Shown in pieces: positions 24,248 through 29,452 of a stretch of 34,414 nt of DNA. A program made the translations under genes and the position numbers. This DNA is from a bacterium (lineage in GTDB: Bacteria > Sysuimicrobiota > Sysuimicrobiia > Sysuimicrobiales > Segetimicrobiaceae). The number at the start of each line of letters is the position of its first letter. The first letter of the stretch is position 1. The stretch covers positions 1 through 34,414 of the forward strand of contig DASYZR010000145.1 of the NCBI GenBank assembly GCA_035945995.1. The letters run 5' to 3'. The notes under the pieces were generated by a model. The model saw nothing but the letters and a program-made list of their open reading frames with translations, was not told the origin of the DNA and searched no databases.

Positions 24248-24631
24248 ATGGACACGCGGCTCATCAATATCGGGTTCGGCAACATCGTGGCGGCCAGCCG
24301 GATCATCGCCATCGTGAGTCCGGACTCCGCGCCGATCAAGCGGATCATTCAGGAGGCCCGGGACAAGGGCATCCTCATCGACGCGACGTACGGCCGGCGC
24401 ACGCGCGCGGTGGTGATCACGGACAGCGGGCACGTCGTGCTCTCCGCGGTCCAGCCGGAGACGGTTGCGCACCGGTTCACGAGCAAGGAGGCCGTGGAGG
24501 AGGAAGAGGAAATGGAGGAGGAGCCCGTGGCCCCGGCGGAGGCGGCGGACGCGCGCATGCCGCGGGGCCGTCCCGCGCAGACCGGGGGCGGGGCTGCCCC
24601 GGCTTCGCGGGGCGGGACTGCCGGCGAATGA
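24248..24631 (+). CDS. remA: RemA-like DUF370 DNA-binding regulator with acidic C-terminal tail
   Basis: The first ~80 residues are a full RemA/DUF370 domain ([48 protein letters not shown]). In B. subtilis RemA is an oligomeric DNA-binding activator of biofilm matrix and osmoprotection genes. Here a tail of about 45 residues is added: first acidic ([13 protein letters not shown]), then Gly/Ala/Pro-rich. Usual length is about 85-90; this one is 127. The tail might weaken or tune DNA binding. Overlaps the next gene by ATGA. Confidence 0.92.
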
Positions 24632-25170
24632 TTCTGACGGTGAGCGGGGAGATCGGCGCCGGGAAGAGCACCGTTGCGCGGGCGCTGGCACAGACGCTCG
24701 GGCTCCGCTATCTCTCCGGCGGCGACGTGTTTCGTGAAGAGGCGCGGCGGCGCGGTCTGACGTTGTCGGCGCTCGGCGAGCTCGCGGAGCGGGATCCCTC
24801 GATCGACCGGATGATCGATCAATTGCAGGTGCACGCCGCGCGCGGCGGCGCGATCGTGGTCGACAGCCGTCTGAGCGGCTGGCTGGTCGACGGCGACTTC
24901 CGGGTCTGGCTGCGTGCGCCGCTGGACGTGCGCGCCCGCCGTGTCGCGGCCCGCGACGCGGCGCCGGTCGAGGCGGCGCGGGCCGCGATCGAGAACCGCG
25001 AGGCGTGCGAGCGCCGGCGCTACGCCGGATTGTATCAGATCGACCTGGGCGACTTGACCCGCTACCATCTCGTGCTCGATACGGCGGTGTGGCGGGCGGA
25101 GGATATCACCCAGGCGATTGCGGCGCTCGCGCGCGCGTTCTGCGGCGAGCGGTCGGGCCAGCGGGCGTAG
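24628..25170 (+). CDS. Archaeal-type (d)CMP kinase in the usual gmk position
   Basis: A 180-residue P-loop kinase. P-loop GEIGAGKST (7-15), then [42 protein letters not shown], and the C-terminal [20 protein letters not shown]. The order G.G..FR..A, AERDP..D...D, the .SRL.GW. segment and RY...Y.IDL.D follows archaeal cytidylate kinases (the short type of ~175-190 residues), not bacterial Cmk (~220) or guanylate kinase. It lacks the guanylate-kinase signature S.T.R..R.GE. Likely phosphorylates CMP/dCMP with ATP. It occupies the slot between remA and coaBC where gmk normally lies; rpoZ is also absent. Overlaps remA (ATGA). Confidence 0.85.
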
Positions 25171-25174
25171 CCGC

Positions 25175-25735
25175 GTGCCCGCGACACTCGACGGACGGAC
25201 CGTCGTCCTCGGGATCTCCGGGAGCATCGCCGCCTACAAGGCCGCGGTGCTTGTCCGGCTGCTCCGCGCGCGCGGGGCGGAGGTATACGTGGTGATGACC
25301 GCGGCCGCGTCGCGCTTCATCAGCCCGCTGACCCTGCGGGCGCTCTCGCATCAGCCGGTGGTGAGCGACATGTGGGCCGGCGACACGCCGTGGGTCGAAC
25401 CCCACGTCGCGCTCGGCGAGCGCGCCGACCTCCTGATCGTGGCGCCGGCGACCGCCGACATGCTCGCCCGGCTGGCCGCCGGGCTCGGGGACGATCCGGT
25501 GTCGGCCACCGCGCTGGCCACGCGCGCGCCCGTGCTGGTCGCGCCGGCCATGAGCGACGCGATGACGGCCTCGCCGGCGGTTCAGGAGAATCTGTCGCGG
25601 CTGCGGACCCGCGGGGTGCACGTGGTGGGACCCGAGCACGGTCCGCTGGCGTCGGGCCGCATTGGGCTCGGCCGCATGACGGAGCCGGAGACGATCGTCG
25701 AGGCCGCCGCCGCGATCCTTGCCGGCGGACGCTGA
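25175..25735 (+). CDS. coaC: Stand-alone phosphopantothenoylcysteine decarboxylase-like flavoprotein (CoaC half only)
   Basis: A 186-residue HFCD flavoprotein at the syntenic coaBC position. VVLGISGSIAAYKA binds FMN; H77 (PHVALGERADL) matches the catalytic histidine; APATADMLARLAAG and RIGLGRMTEPETI are family-typical. The usual PAMN reads PAMS (124-127), and the CGD cysteine is Ser (LASG, about 157-161); both positions vary in some actinobacterial homologues I can recall. The CoaB synthetase half that normally follows (about 200 residues) is absent: priA begins 12 bases after the stop. CoaA-pathway function is probable but not certain; another flavin decarboxylase role is possible. GTG start at 25175. 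Confidence 0.82.
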   Translation: MPATLDGRTVVLGISGSIAAYKAAVLVRLLRARGAEVYVVMTAAASRFISPLTLRALSHQPVVSDMWAGDTPWVEPHVALGERADLLIVAPATADMLARLAAGLGDDPVSATALATRAPVLVAPAMSDAMTASPAVQENLSRLRTRGVHVVGPEHGPLASGRIGLGRMTEPETIVEAAAAILAGGR

Positions 25736-25746
25736 GAAGCGTGGAG

Positions 25747-27948
25747 ATGGGAGTCGTGGACGCGGAGCTCCGTCGCGCTGCTCCGACGGAGGTCCACGCC
25801 GCCGGCGCCGATCCGAACCTGTACGGTGAGGTGCTCCTGCCGCACACCGGCGGGCTCGCCGATCGGCCGCTGACGTACCGAATCCCGCCGGCGCTGCGGC
25901 CCTTCGCGGCCGTCGGGGCGCGCGCGGAAGTCCCGCTCGGCCCGCGGCGGGTTCTCGGTGTGCTGCTGGCAGTCCGGGAGGACGACGGGGTCCGCGCCGC
26001 ACGGCCCATCCGCGACGTGGTCGACATTCCCGACGAACCGCCGCTCGTCACGCCGGCGCTGCTCGCCCTTGCGCGGGAGATCGCAGCCGAGACGCTCTCT
26101 CCGCTCGGCAATGCCGTGCAGTGCCTCGTGCCGCCGGACGTACTGCGCCGGCGTCCGCCGTCCCGGCCGCGGATCGTCGTGCGCCATCCGTCGCGGCCCC
26201 TTCCGGCGCGTCTCGGCCGGCGGCAGGCCGCGATGCTGGCCATCCTGGACGCCGCGCCGGAAGGCGTCCCGGTCTCCGACCTCGTCGGCGCCGGCGGACG
26301 GGACGGCCTGCGGCGGCTTCTTGAGAGCGGGCTCGCGCAACTCCGTGAAGCCGTCCGGACGCCGTCACCCGGCGCGGCGCGCCCGCCCGTGCATCCGCGG
26401 GATGCGAAGTCCGGCCGCCGGAACGGCGGGCCGGTCCGTCCGGCGCTGCTCCTCGGGCATCCGGACGCGAGGGCCGCGTGGATCACCGATGCCGTCGCGT
26501 CCGCCGTGCGCGACGGGGACCGCGCTCTCGTCGTGGTGCCGGAGATCGTCGACGTGCCGCCGATGGTGGAGTCTCTCCGGCGTCGGGCGGCCGGGACGAT
26601 GGCGGTCCTTCATTCGGGCCTGTCACGGCGGGAACGCCGCGCGTCGTGGATGCGCGCGCGCGACGGTGCGGCGGACGTCGTCGTGGGGACCCGGTCGGCG
26701 CTCTTCGTGCCGCTGCCGCGCCTCCGCCTGATCATCCTCGACAACGAGCCGGCCGAGGCCCATAAGTCCGACGCGGCGCCGCGGTATCACGCGCGGGACG
26801 TCGCCCTGCGGCGGGCACGGCTCGAAGGCGCCCGGGCGATCCTCGGCGCGTCGGCGCCGTCCGTCGAAACCTACGCCGCGGCGGCGGCCGGCGATCTGAG
26901 CGCGATCCGCCTGCCGCCGCCGCGTTCGCTTCCGGTGCTCACCGTCGTCGACATGCGCGCGGAGCGCCACGAAGGGCACGCCGGGTACCTGAGCCGCGCG
27001 CTGGTACAGGCCGTCGGCCGCCATCTGCGGGCTCCGGGCGGCGTCGCGCTGCTCGTCCAGCGGACCGGCTATGCGCGCGTGCTGCTCTGCCGCGAGTGCG
27101 GTGCCGCAGTGCGGTGTCCCGCCTGCGACGTCGCGATGGCGTACGACCGCGAAGCCGGCACCGTGCGCTGCCGCGTGTGTGCGCGGACCGCGCGGGCGCC
27201 GGACGTCTGCCCGCGCTGCCGCGGCGTCGATCTGCGCGGCGTCGGGGCCGGCACGAAGCGCATCGAGGAGATTGTGCGCCGCCTCTTTCCGGGCCTCAGG
27301 ATGGCGCGGTTCGACGCCGAGACCGCGGGCGGCGCCGACCGCGTCGTCCGGGACTTCGCCGAGGGCCGGCTGCGGTTGCTCGTCGGCACCGCGCGGCTGC
27401 TGCGGGCGCCCGGGCTCCGCCCGACCCTCGTGGGCGTGATCGACGCCGACGGCCCGATGTACGTCCCCGATTTTCGCGCCGCGGAGCGCACGCTGCAGCG
27501 GCTTCGCGCGGCGGTGAACTGGGCCGCCGCGTCCGGCGGGGGCCGGCCGGCGCCCGAAGTCGTCCTGCAGACCCGCGTCCCCGATCACCCGGTCATGCGC
27601 GCGATTCGCGCCGGCGACGACGCGGCGTTCTATGACGGCGAGCTCACCGCGCGCCGCGCCTTCGGGTATCCTCCGTACGCGCGGCTGGCGCGGGTGGTGG
27701 CCGAGGCATCTGCGCCGGCGGTCGCGCGGGCGCTGGCCGCCCGCATCGCGGCCGCCGCCCGGGCCCAGGGGCTGGACGTGCTGGGGCCGGCGGTGCTGGC
27801 GGCACCCGGCCACGCCCGCGTCCAGTGCGTGCTGCGGGCCGCGGACGGGACCGCGCTCCGCGACGGGACGCGGGCCGTCCTCGCCCGCGTTCCGGTGCCC
27901 CCGGGAACCCGCCTGGTCGTCGACGTGGACCCCCAGGAGATGGTGTGA
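25747..27948 (+). CDS. priA: PriA-like primosomal protein N' lacking all helicase ATPase motifs
   Basis: A 733-residue PriA homologue. The N-terminal 3'-DNA-binding domain (about 25-135, with PLTYRIPPALRP, VGARAEVPLGPRRVLGVL), VVVGTRSALFVPL (311-323), PRYHARDVALRRA (345-357), eight zinc cysteines (448, 451, 457, 460, 475, 478, 488, 491), GVGAGTKRIEEIV, PDFRAAERTLQR and the C-terminal domain are recognisable. The Walker A GxTGSGKT is replaced by GHPDARAA (237-244), DEEH by DNEP (332-335), and the QVAGRAGR motif by AAVNWAAAS. It cannot be an ordinary ATP-driven helicase; it may act as a DNA-binding replication-restart scaffold, as proposed for actinobacterial PriA. ATG at 25747 with GAGAAG seven bases upstream; GTG at 25741 is an alternative. 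Overlaps def (GTGA). Confidence 0.9.
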   Translation: MGVVDAELRRAAPTEVHAAGADPNLYGEVLLPHTGGLADRPLTYRIPPALRPFAAVGARAEVPLGPRRVLGVLLAVREDDGVRAARPIRDVVDIPDEPPLVTPALLALAREIAAETLSPLGNAVQCLVPPDVLRRRPPSRPRIVVRHPSRPLPARLGRRQAAMLAILDAAPEGVPVSDLVGAGGRDGLRRLLESGLAQLREAVRTPSPGAARPPVHPRDAKSGRRNGGPVRPALLLGHPDARAAWITDAVASAVRDGDRALVVVPEIVDVPPMVESLRRRAAGTMAVLHSGLSRRERRASWMRARDGAADVVVGTRSALFVPLPRLRLIILDNEPAEAHKSDAAPRYHARDVALRRARLEGARAILGASAPSVETYAAAAAGDLSAIRLPPPRSLPVLTVVDMRAERHEGHAGYLSRALVQAVGRHLRAPGGVALLVQRTGYARVLLCRECGAAVRCPACDVAMAYDREAGTVRCRVCARTARAPDVCPRCRGVDLRGVGAGTKRIEEIVRRLFPGLRMARFDAETAGGADRVVRDFAEGRLRLLVGTARLLRAPGLRPTLVGVIDADGPMYVPDFRAAERTLQRLRAAVNWAAASGGGRPAPEVVLQTRVPDHPVMRAIRAGDDAAFYDGELTARRAFGYPPYARLARVVAEASAPAVARALAARIAAAARAQGLDVLGPAVLAAPGHARVQCVLRAADGTALRDGTRAVLARVPVPPGTRLVVDVDPQEMV

Positions 27949-28499
27949 CCGCGCGCACACTCGAGATCGTGACCGTCGGCGATCCCCGCGCGGCCATTCT
28001 GCGCCGGCGCGCGCAGGCCGTGCGGACGGTCACGCGCGACGTCCGGACGCTCATCGAGCAGATGTTTGAGACCCTCCGCCACGCGCGCGGACTCGGGCTG
28101 GCGGCGCCGCAGGTCGGGGTCGCGCAGCGCGTCGTGGTCATCGAGGTGCGGGATCGCCGCCTCGCGCTCGTGGACCCGGAGATTCTCAAGCGGGACGGCG
28201 AGGCGCTCGGCACGGAGGCCTGCCTCAGCATTCCCGGTTTGCTCGGCGATGTTCCGCGGGCGACGCATGTGGTCGTGCGGGCGCGCAACCGGCGCAACCG
28301 ATACATTACCGTCGACGCCGAAGGACTGCTGGCCCGCGTGCTCCAGCACGAGGTCGACCATCTGAACGGTGTGCTCTTCCCCGACCGCGTCCTGGATCCC
28401 AAGACGCTGCGGCGCGTGGACGACGAGGCGACGGAGGTCGCCCCGGAGAGCGCCGCCTCCGCGGACGAGATCCGCGTGTCCGGCGACGCGGCGTCGTGA
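27945..28499 (+). CDS. def: Peptide deformylase
   Basis: Removes the formyl group from nascent N-terminal formyl-methionine. Three motifs are intact: GLGLAAPQVG (motif 1), EACLSIPG (motif 2 with the metal-binding Cys; the usual EGCLS is EACLS), and QHEVDHLNGVLF (HExxH, motif 3). 184 residues, with a ~20-residue acidic tail. GTG start at 27945 overlaps priA, and the gene overlaps fmt (GTGA). def-fmt pairing is the usual functional unit. Confidence 0.96.
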   Translation: MTARTLEIVTVGDPRAAILRRRAQAVRTVTRDVRTLIEQMFETLRHARGLGLAAPQVGVAQRVVVIEVRDRRLALVDPEILKRDGEALGTEACLSIPGLLGDVPRATHVVVRARNRRNRYITVDAEGLLARVLQHEVDHLNGVLFPDRVLDPKTLRRVDDEATEVAPESAASADEIRVSGDAAS

Positions 28500-29452
28500 A
28501 GATCATGTTCTTCGGCACCCCCGAGTTCGCCGTGCCGTCGCTCGACGCGGCGCTGGCCGTCGGGGAGGTCGTCGCGGTCGTGACGCGCCCGGACAAGCCG
28601 CGCGGCCGCGGCCTGCAGGTGGAGCCGCCGCCCGTGGCGCGCGCCGCCGACGAGTACGCGCTGGAGGTGCTGCAGCCGGGGTCGCTGCGCGATCCGTCGT
28701 TCCTTGCGCGCCTCGGGGAGCTCGCGCCGGACGTCGGCGTGCTCGTCGCGTTCGGCCGGCTGGTCCCACCCGAAGTCCTCGCGCTGCCGCCGCGCGGCAT
28801 CGTCAACGTCCATCCGTCGCTGCTGCCGCGGTACCGCGGCGCCGCGCCGATTGCCCGCGCCATCGCGGCCGGCGAAACCGAGACCGGCGTCACGATCCTG
28901 TACCTTTCCGAAGAACTGGACGCCGGCGACATCATCCTGCAGCGCGCGGTGCCCATCGCGCCGGAAGCAACGACCCGGACGCTGACCCCGCATCTCGCGG
29001 CCGGGGGGGCCGGGTTGCTGGCGGAGGCGCTGCGTCTCATCGAGGCCGGTCGCGCGCCGCGCCGCGCGCAGGATGCCTCCCTCGCGACGTGGGCGCCGCG
29101 CCTCCGGCGGGAGGACGGGGAGATCGACTGGCGCCGGCCCGCGGCCGGCATCGTGAATTTGGTCCGGGCCTGCGACCCGTGGCCGGGGGCCTTCACCCAC
29201 GTGCAGGCCGACGAGGTCAAGGTCTGGCGGGCGACGGCATCTGCGGTATCGCCGGGGCGGGCCGGCGCGCCCGGGACGGTGCTCGACGTCCCGAACGACG
29301 ACCGGTCGCCGCTCGTCGTGGCCGCCGGCGACGGAGCCGTGCTGGTCCACGAAGTGCAGCCCGCCGCCGGCCGGCGGATGACCGCGGCCGCGTACGCGCG
29401 CGGCCACCGGCTCGACGCCGGCACGGCGCTGGGGCGCCGCGGAGGCGCCTGA
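28496..29452 (+). CDS. fmt: Methionyl-tRNA formyltransferase
   Basis: Formylates initiator Met-tRNA with 10-formyl-THF. 318 residues: FFGTPEFAVPSL (N-terminal), HPSLLPRYRGAAPIARAI (catalytic His and SLLPxxRG), TGVTILYLSEELDAGDIILQ (catalytic Asp in the loop), then a C-terminal OB-fold (about 205-315). GTG start at 28496 from the GTGA overlap with def. Confidence 0.96.
   Translation: MKIMFFGTPEFAVPSLDAALAVGEVVAVVTRPDKPRGRGLQVEPPPVARAADEYALEVLQPGSLRDPSFLARLGELAPDVGVLVAFGRLVPPEVLALPPRGIVNVHPSLLPRYRGAAPIARAIAAGETETGVTILYLSEELDAGDIILQRAVPIAPEATTRTLTPHLAAGGAGLLAEALRLIEAGRAPRRAQDASLATWAPRLRREDGEIDWRRPAAGIVNLVRACDPWPGAFTHVQADEVKVWRATASAVSPGRAGAPGTVLDVPNDDRSPLVVAAGDGAVLVHEVQPAAGRRMTAAAYARGHRLDAGTALGRRGGA

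Follow-up and report, generated by a model that had tools for sequence, protein, structure and literature searches.

The window, the whole stretch of 34,414 nucleotides analysed here, carries a priA gene on its forward strand within the conserved gene run yicC-remA-kinase-flavoprotein-priA-def-fmt (around 25747-27948). The features of this region are:

24248..24631, + strand: remA-like gene of the priA gene run (PF04025)
25118..25735, + strand: CoaC-like flavoprotein gene, immediately upstream of priA (PF02441)
25747..27948, + strand: priA, encoding a motorless PriA of 733 aa (translation; PF17764, PF18074, TIGR00595), sole copy found in the genome
25828..26133, + strand: 3' DNA-binding domain (3'BD), residues 28-129 (PF17764, E=4e-16)
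26455..26478, + strand: dead Walker A, GHPDARAA replacing GVTGSGKTE, residues 237-244, with Arg242 at the catalytic Lys position (alignment)
26470-26472, + strand: codon of Arg242, Walker A Lys position
26740..26751, + strand: eroded Walker B/motif II, DNEP replacing DEEH, residues 332-335, with Asp332 and Glu334 retained (alignment)
27088..27219, + strand: zinc-binding region, residues 448-491, 8/8 cysteines present (alignment; weak match to PF18319)
27508..27534, + strand: eroded motif VI, AAVNWAAAS replacing QVAGRAGR, residues 588-596, arginine fingers gone (alignment)
27673..27933, + strand: PriA C-terminal domain, residues 643-729 (PF18074, E=8e-7, above the gathering score; 8/8 conserved residues present)
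27945..28499, + strand: def, peptide deformylase (PF01327), beginning with a GTG that overlaps the stop codon of priA (GTGA)
28496..29452, + strand: fmt, methionyl-tRNA formyltransferase, a conserved priA neighbour (PF00551/PF02911)

Because of this overlap, priA and def are co-transcribed and probably coupled. Where both genes are assembled in a genome of the order, fmt nearly always lies near priA, and yicC, remA and the kinase gene also precede priA in a locus of another family of the order (f6, L113). The flavoprotein gene (25118-25735) encodes just the CoaC-like half, 205 aa long, as does its counterpart in a relative from the window's own family (f1, L056); coaBC is the usual occupant of this position in Bacillota. 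The slot after remA holds a cytidylate-kinase-like P-loop protein (PF13189) both in the window (24628-25170) and in the f6 locus (L113:5087-5731), and gmk is the usual gene after remA in Bacillota. An Rfam scan of the window gave no matches.

The priA gene is a single uninterrupted reading frame, and its product carries all the features that define membership of the PriA family, namely the 3'BD (PF17764, 59 bits against a cut-off of 22.7), a match to the PriA equivalog profile TIGR00595 (353 bits, above the cut-off of 230), an eight-cysteine, two-zinc region and the C-terminal domain (PF18074, 30.3 bits, cut-off 26.9). The closest solved structures are Klebsiella and E. coli PriA. The top PDB matches of the AlphaFold model (pLDDT 80.6, pTM 0.77) are all PriA (8fak, 6dcr and 4nl4, E about 1e-50), well ahead of every other helicase (Mfd at 1e-14). 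As the query was accompanied only by intact relatives in the input alignment, the model may lean towards the PriA fold and shows fold compatibility, no independent proof.

The signature of an active motor (Walker A GxTGSGKT, DEEH and motif VI QVAGRAGR) is absent from this protein. It was compared with 72 intact PriA sequences (50 from genome contig loci, 7 from family f4 and 15 outgroups), and a position was taken as conserved when it was conserved in at least 90% of these. Few conserved residues are retained in motifs I (3/12), II (2/4), III (2/5), V (2/4) and VI (2/7); outside the ATPase motifs, retention is 48/62 for the remaining motor core, 9/12 for the zinc region and 8/8 for the C-terminal domain. 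The 3'BD has also lost part of its conserved residues (4/8 retained). When pooled, 11/32 positions are retained in the ATPase motifs versus 69/90 elsewhere (Fisher p = 2.9e-5), and the erosion of the motor is therefore selective. The blocks PEI, HSGL, GTRSAL, YHARD and DFRAAER are still present. An earlier, sequence-only reading had described a PriA homologue here with every ATPase/helicase motif erased and its DNA-binding, zinc and C-terminal parts remaining. Its coordinates, reading frame and three quoted strings are exact, the three parts are all found (PF17764, eight cysteines, PF18074), and alignment to intact PriA places no intact Walker A or DEEH elsewhere in the protein. Only the word 'every' slightly overstates the loss, as Asp332, Glu334 and the GT of motif V remain. 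At the level of sequence, the observation of a motorless PriA is confirmed well beyond chance.

The order is represented in the genome collection by 43 genomes, and these also make up the whole of its phylum there. With a single class and a single order, the phylum would be consistent with Sysuimicrobiota (CSP1-3; PMC11604079). The motor motifs are lost in 28/28 readable PriA proteins of three families, i.e. f1 (the window's family, 11), f2 (10) and f6 (7); one of the 28 (G036) is a fragment without the Walker A region. They are intact in 7/7 PriA of family f4, and the single fragment from f3 has an intact motif VI. The f4 proteins (e.g. L065, G014) belong to the same order, occupy the same priA-def-fmt neighbourhood and share about 44% identity with the window PriA, but GVTGSGKTE, DEEH and QVAGRAGR are all present in them. 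In f5, represented by one MAG, PriA is half eroded (L070, G015), with GLLEGEKTE as Walker A, DEEH kept and QLAGKTG as motif VI; this protein may be a midway stage of motor loss. PriA is missing for four f6 genomes (G035, G037, G039, G042) and one f7 genome (G017), where the fmt contig ends alongside or priA was not found. Because intact PriA occurs in relatives with this same neighbourhood, the loss occurred within the phylum, separately from that in actinobacteria. A PriA tree, proposed in the earlier reading as a check, places the window PriA nested in its own phylum.

How often the motor was lost inside the phylum depends on the marker, as deep branching differs three ways between the RpoBC, ribosomal-operon and PriA trees. 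With the motif columns left out, PriA trees unite f1, f2 and f6 (SH-aLRT 95-99) and reject or nearly reject both alternative placements (AU p 0.008-0.095). The RpoB+RpoC tree groups f1 with the intact families f3/f4 (SH-aLRT 98) and a 22-gene ribosomal-operon tree places f1 at the base (support 98); both imply two independent losses, in f1 and in the ancestor of f2 and f6, which we regard as possible but less likely. Against two losses, a single origin is compatible with the species markers when combined (AU p=0.257), and the three families share an arginine at the Walker A lysine. Long stems are a factor on both sides. A single motor loss in the ancestor of f1, f2 and f6 is most likely.

The shared arginine was read in an ungapped column, 23 residues before the proline of PEI. 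Among the motorless PriA of the order, all that can be read here (27/27) have Arg in this column, with variable residues around it; all seven f4 proteins and f5 have Lys. On the Walker B side, Asp332 is retained in 26/28 and Glu334 in 28/28 motorless PriA of the order. The same Lys-to-Arg exchange occurs in three more sampled genomes (G088, G119, G203) and in PriA of Deinococcus-Thermus (PMC4504706), and the corresponding substitution in E. coli PriA, K230R, abolishes its ATPase (PMC4504706). The fixed arginine suggests that this residue has retained a structural role. More tentatively, the dead P-loop might have acquired a new job, in which a salt bridge from the arginine to the Walker B acids would lock the lobes in the fork-bound state; we consider this possible but doubtful. 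If true, a state otherwise controlled by ATP would be fixed, and a switchable remodeller would have become a permanently closed scaffold, repeatedly via the same first step.

Taken as a whole, the protein is very probably a functional PriA, inherited vertically, that has turned into a pseudohelicase and would recognise forks and recruit DnaB without unwinding of its own. Sequence loss, single copy, selection, intact relatives, retained domains, gene order and the presence of DciA are direct observations. For the window PriA we infer absent ATPase activity, a scaffold function and DnaB recruitment. Abandoned forks would be recognised through the 3'BD, the helicase-lobe scaffold, the zinc region and the C-terminal domain. 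ATP would be neither bound nor hydrolysed and the lagging strand would not be unwound by PriA itself; DnaB would be recruited with the DciA-type loader encoded in the genome and would do the unwinding once loaded. Motor loss would have begun with, or passed through, the Walker A Lys-to-Arg exchange; the other motifs would then have drifted, with selection still acting on the parts for DNA binding and docking. Given the partial loss in the 3'BD, DNA recognition may be altered too.

The probable loader, DciA, is found in 40/43 genomes of the phylum, including that of the window. As a trait permitting motor loss it was rejected, since it occurs in 13/16 motorless versus 51/62 intact genomes, without enrichment. 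A replacement helicase of the UvrD family was likewise discarded, as motorless and intact families encode the same pair of types (of about 740 aa and 1050 aa).

The earlier suggestion of a further motor for replication restart here is not supported. E. coli remains viable with ATPase-dead priA alleles, which still allow primosome assembly (cited in PMC4504706), and PriA K230A was the variant employed for loading DnaB onto forks (PMC10175261); a second motor is therefore not required. We consider it unlikely that the dead PriA depends on a compensating motor, such as PcrA/UvrD, RecG or a partner helicase, to have the fork opened. The genome does carry genes of the RecG, Mfd and UvrD types (RecG and Mfd as judged from secondary TIGR00595 matches in frames of fitting size), but they are equally present in relatives with an intact PriA and nothing marks a replacement. 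No helicase confined to motorless families turned up, UvrD-family proteins and DciA being alike in intact and motorless relatives, and in E. coli an ATPase-dead PriA supports restart.

It is very improbable that the protein is an ATPase still active through non-canonical motifs. The retained Walker B residues Asp332 and Glu334 would fit this, as would the motif V GT, but the P-loop glycines, Lys and Thr and both motif VI arginines are absent, and the K-to-R exchange by itself is enough to abolish the ATPase of E. coli PriA (PMC4504706).

It is even harder to see the window priA as a decayed copy or pseudogene with the true helicase PriA encoded elsewhere. The genome is a MAG in 181 contigs, so that a missing second copy is conceivable, but a profile search of this 98.8% complete assembly, carried out for the second, intact priA that would have overturned the earlier reading, found one priA only. 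Its frame is open throughout, its operon position is retained, and 11/11 readable genomes of family f1 are the same. The dN/dS values (Nei-Gojobori) are well below 1, with 0.27-0.33 in the window's genus, 0.27-0.36 for pairs across family f1, 0.15-0.31 in f2/f6 and 0.14-0.23 in the intact f4. The window PriA is therefore under purifying selection, somewhat relaxed; neither a loss of such selection nor a broken frame, as expected of a pseudogene, is seen.

Actinobacterial PriA (e.g. that of M. tuberculosis) also lacks the ATPase motifs, with the whole lineage affected. Acquisition from actinobacteria, which the high G+C content (72% in the window) and the similar loss might suggest, is scarcely credible, as the window PriA scores 415 bits with PRK05580 (the helicase subfamily) versus 178 with PRK14873 (the actinobacterial one), a comparison protein of the actinobacterial type (G150) shows the reverse (132 versus 770 bits), and the protein nests in its own phylum in a neighbourhood shared with its relatives. 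A plasmid search for actinobacterial PriA gave nothing usable.

In a wider survey, 233 genomes (190 outside the phylum) were searched by profile, and most gave a full-length helicase-type PriA match. Motifs were examined in 30 of the weakest-matching genomes outside the phylum, and in 16/30 Walker A, DEEH and motif VI are missing or nearly so; among these 16, two (G107, G216) retain the lysine and three (G078, G114, G163) have a loose alignment of the motor region. By profile type, one of the 16 (G150) is actinobacterial (PRK14873), and nine others scanned match best with helicase-type models, like the window PriA. On an RpoB tree of 93 genomes, a motorless versus intact label needs 12 changes, at least 8 of which are forced by well-supported branches; most 'intact' labels derive from a profile match starting at Walker A, motifs not individually read, and RpoB alone resolves deep branches poorly. 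The motor thus seems to have been lost in at least eight separate bacterial lineages, and PriA seems to be mainly a scaffold able to dispense with its motor. No PriA match at E<=1e-20 was obtained in several fairly complete genomes (G058, G073, G074, G076, G101, G118 and others). The one-contig, 1.4 Mb genome G078 encodes a PriA-like protein of 637 aa (L240, 364-2274, + strand) in which only the PriA zinc region exceeds the Pfam cut-off, and the 3'BD and motor are unrecognisable.

The earlier suggestion that the motorless form may extend beyond actinobacteria or have arisen more than once is borne out on both counts, given the PRK05580 type of the window PriA and the intact PriA in the same order. 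Its repeated origin stands, although it was already known in principle from Deinococcus-Thermus (PMC4504706).

PriA is almost always named a helicase, and conservation extends to its motor, which is dispensable in E. coli. As intact, half-eroded and dead versions occur in one order and at least eight losses are seen, the question of why the motor is conserved becomes testable by comparison. Such a comparison could show which genome traits accompany motor loss (DciA is not one) and in which order the motifs fail. Additionally, annotation pipelines label many proteins 'replication restart helicase' that cannot be helicases.

Compared with known systems, the window PriA shares domain order and fold with E. 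coli and Klebsiella PriA (8fak, 6dcr, 4nl4; about 27% identity in the structural match), in which the ATPase motifs are intact. Actinobacterial PriA (PRK14873) resembles it in the lineage-wide absence of these motifs but is another subfamily by profile score, and the window PriA has its zinc region complete and is highly similar to helicase PriA. A close counterpart is the PriA of D. radiodurans, a published and tested pseudohelicase that has no ATPase or helicase activity and binds forks and DnaB (PMC4504706). As in Deinococcus, Walker A and B are eroded with a Lys-to-Arg exchange in Walker A, the DNA-binding parts are kept and the protein is the sole PriA, a likeness that for the window is one of sequence only. 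A DciA-type loader is a further likeness of the lineages, seen in the control genomes Thermus and Deinobacterium. The two differ in phylum and have separate origins, the biochemistry is available for Deinococcus only, and in the window PriA Walker A is almost entirely replaced and motif VI is gone too. A motorless PriA as such is already known, and its repeated origin has been partly known since 2015 (PMC4504706); new are the independent origin in this phylum, the intact-to-dead series in one order, the fixed arginine and how broadly the loss recurs.
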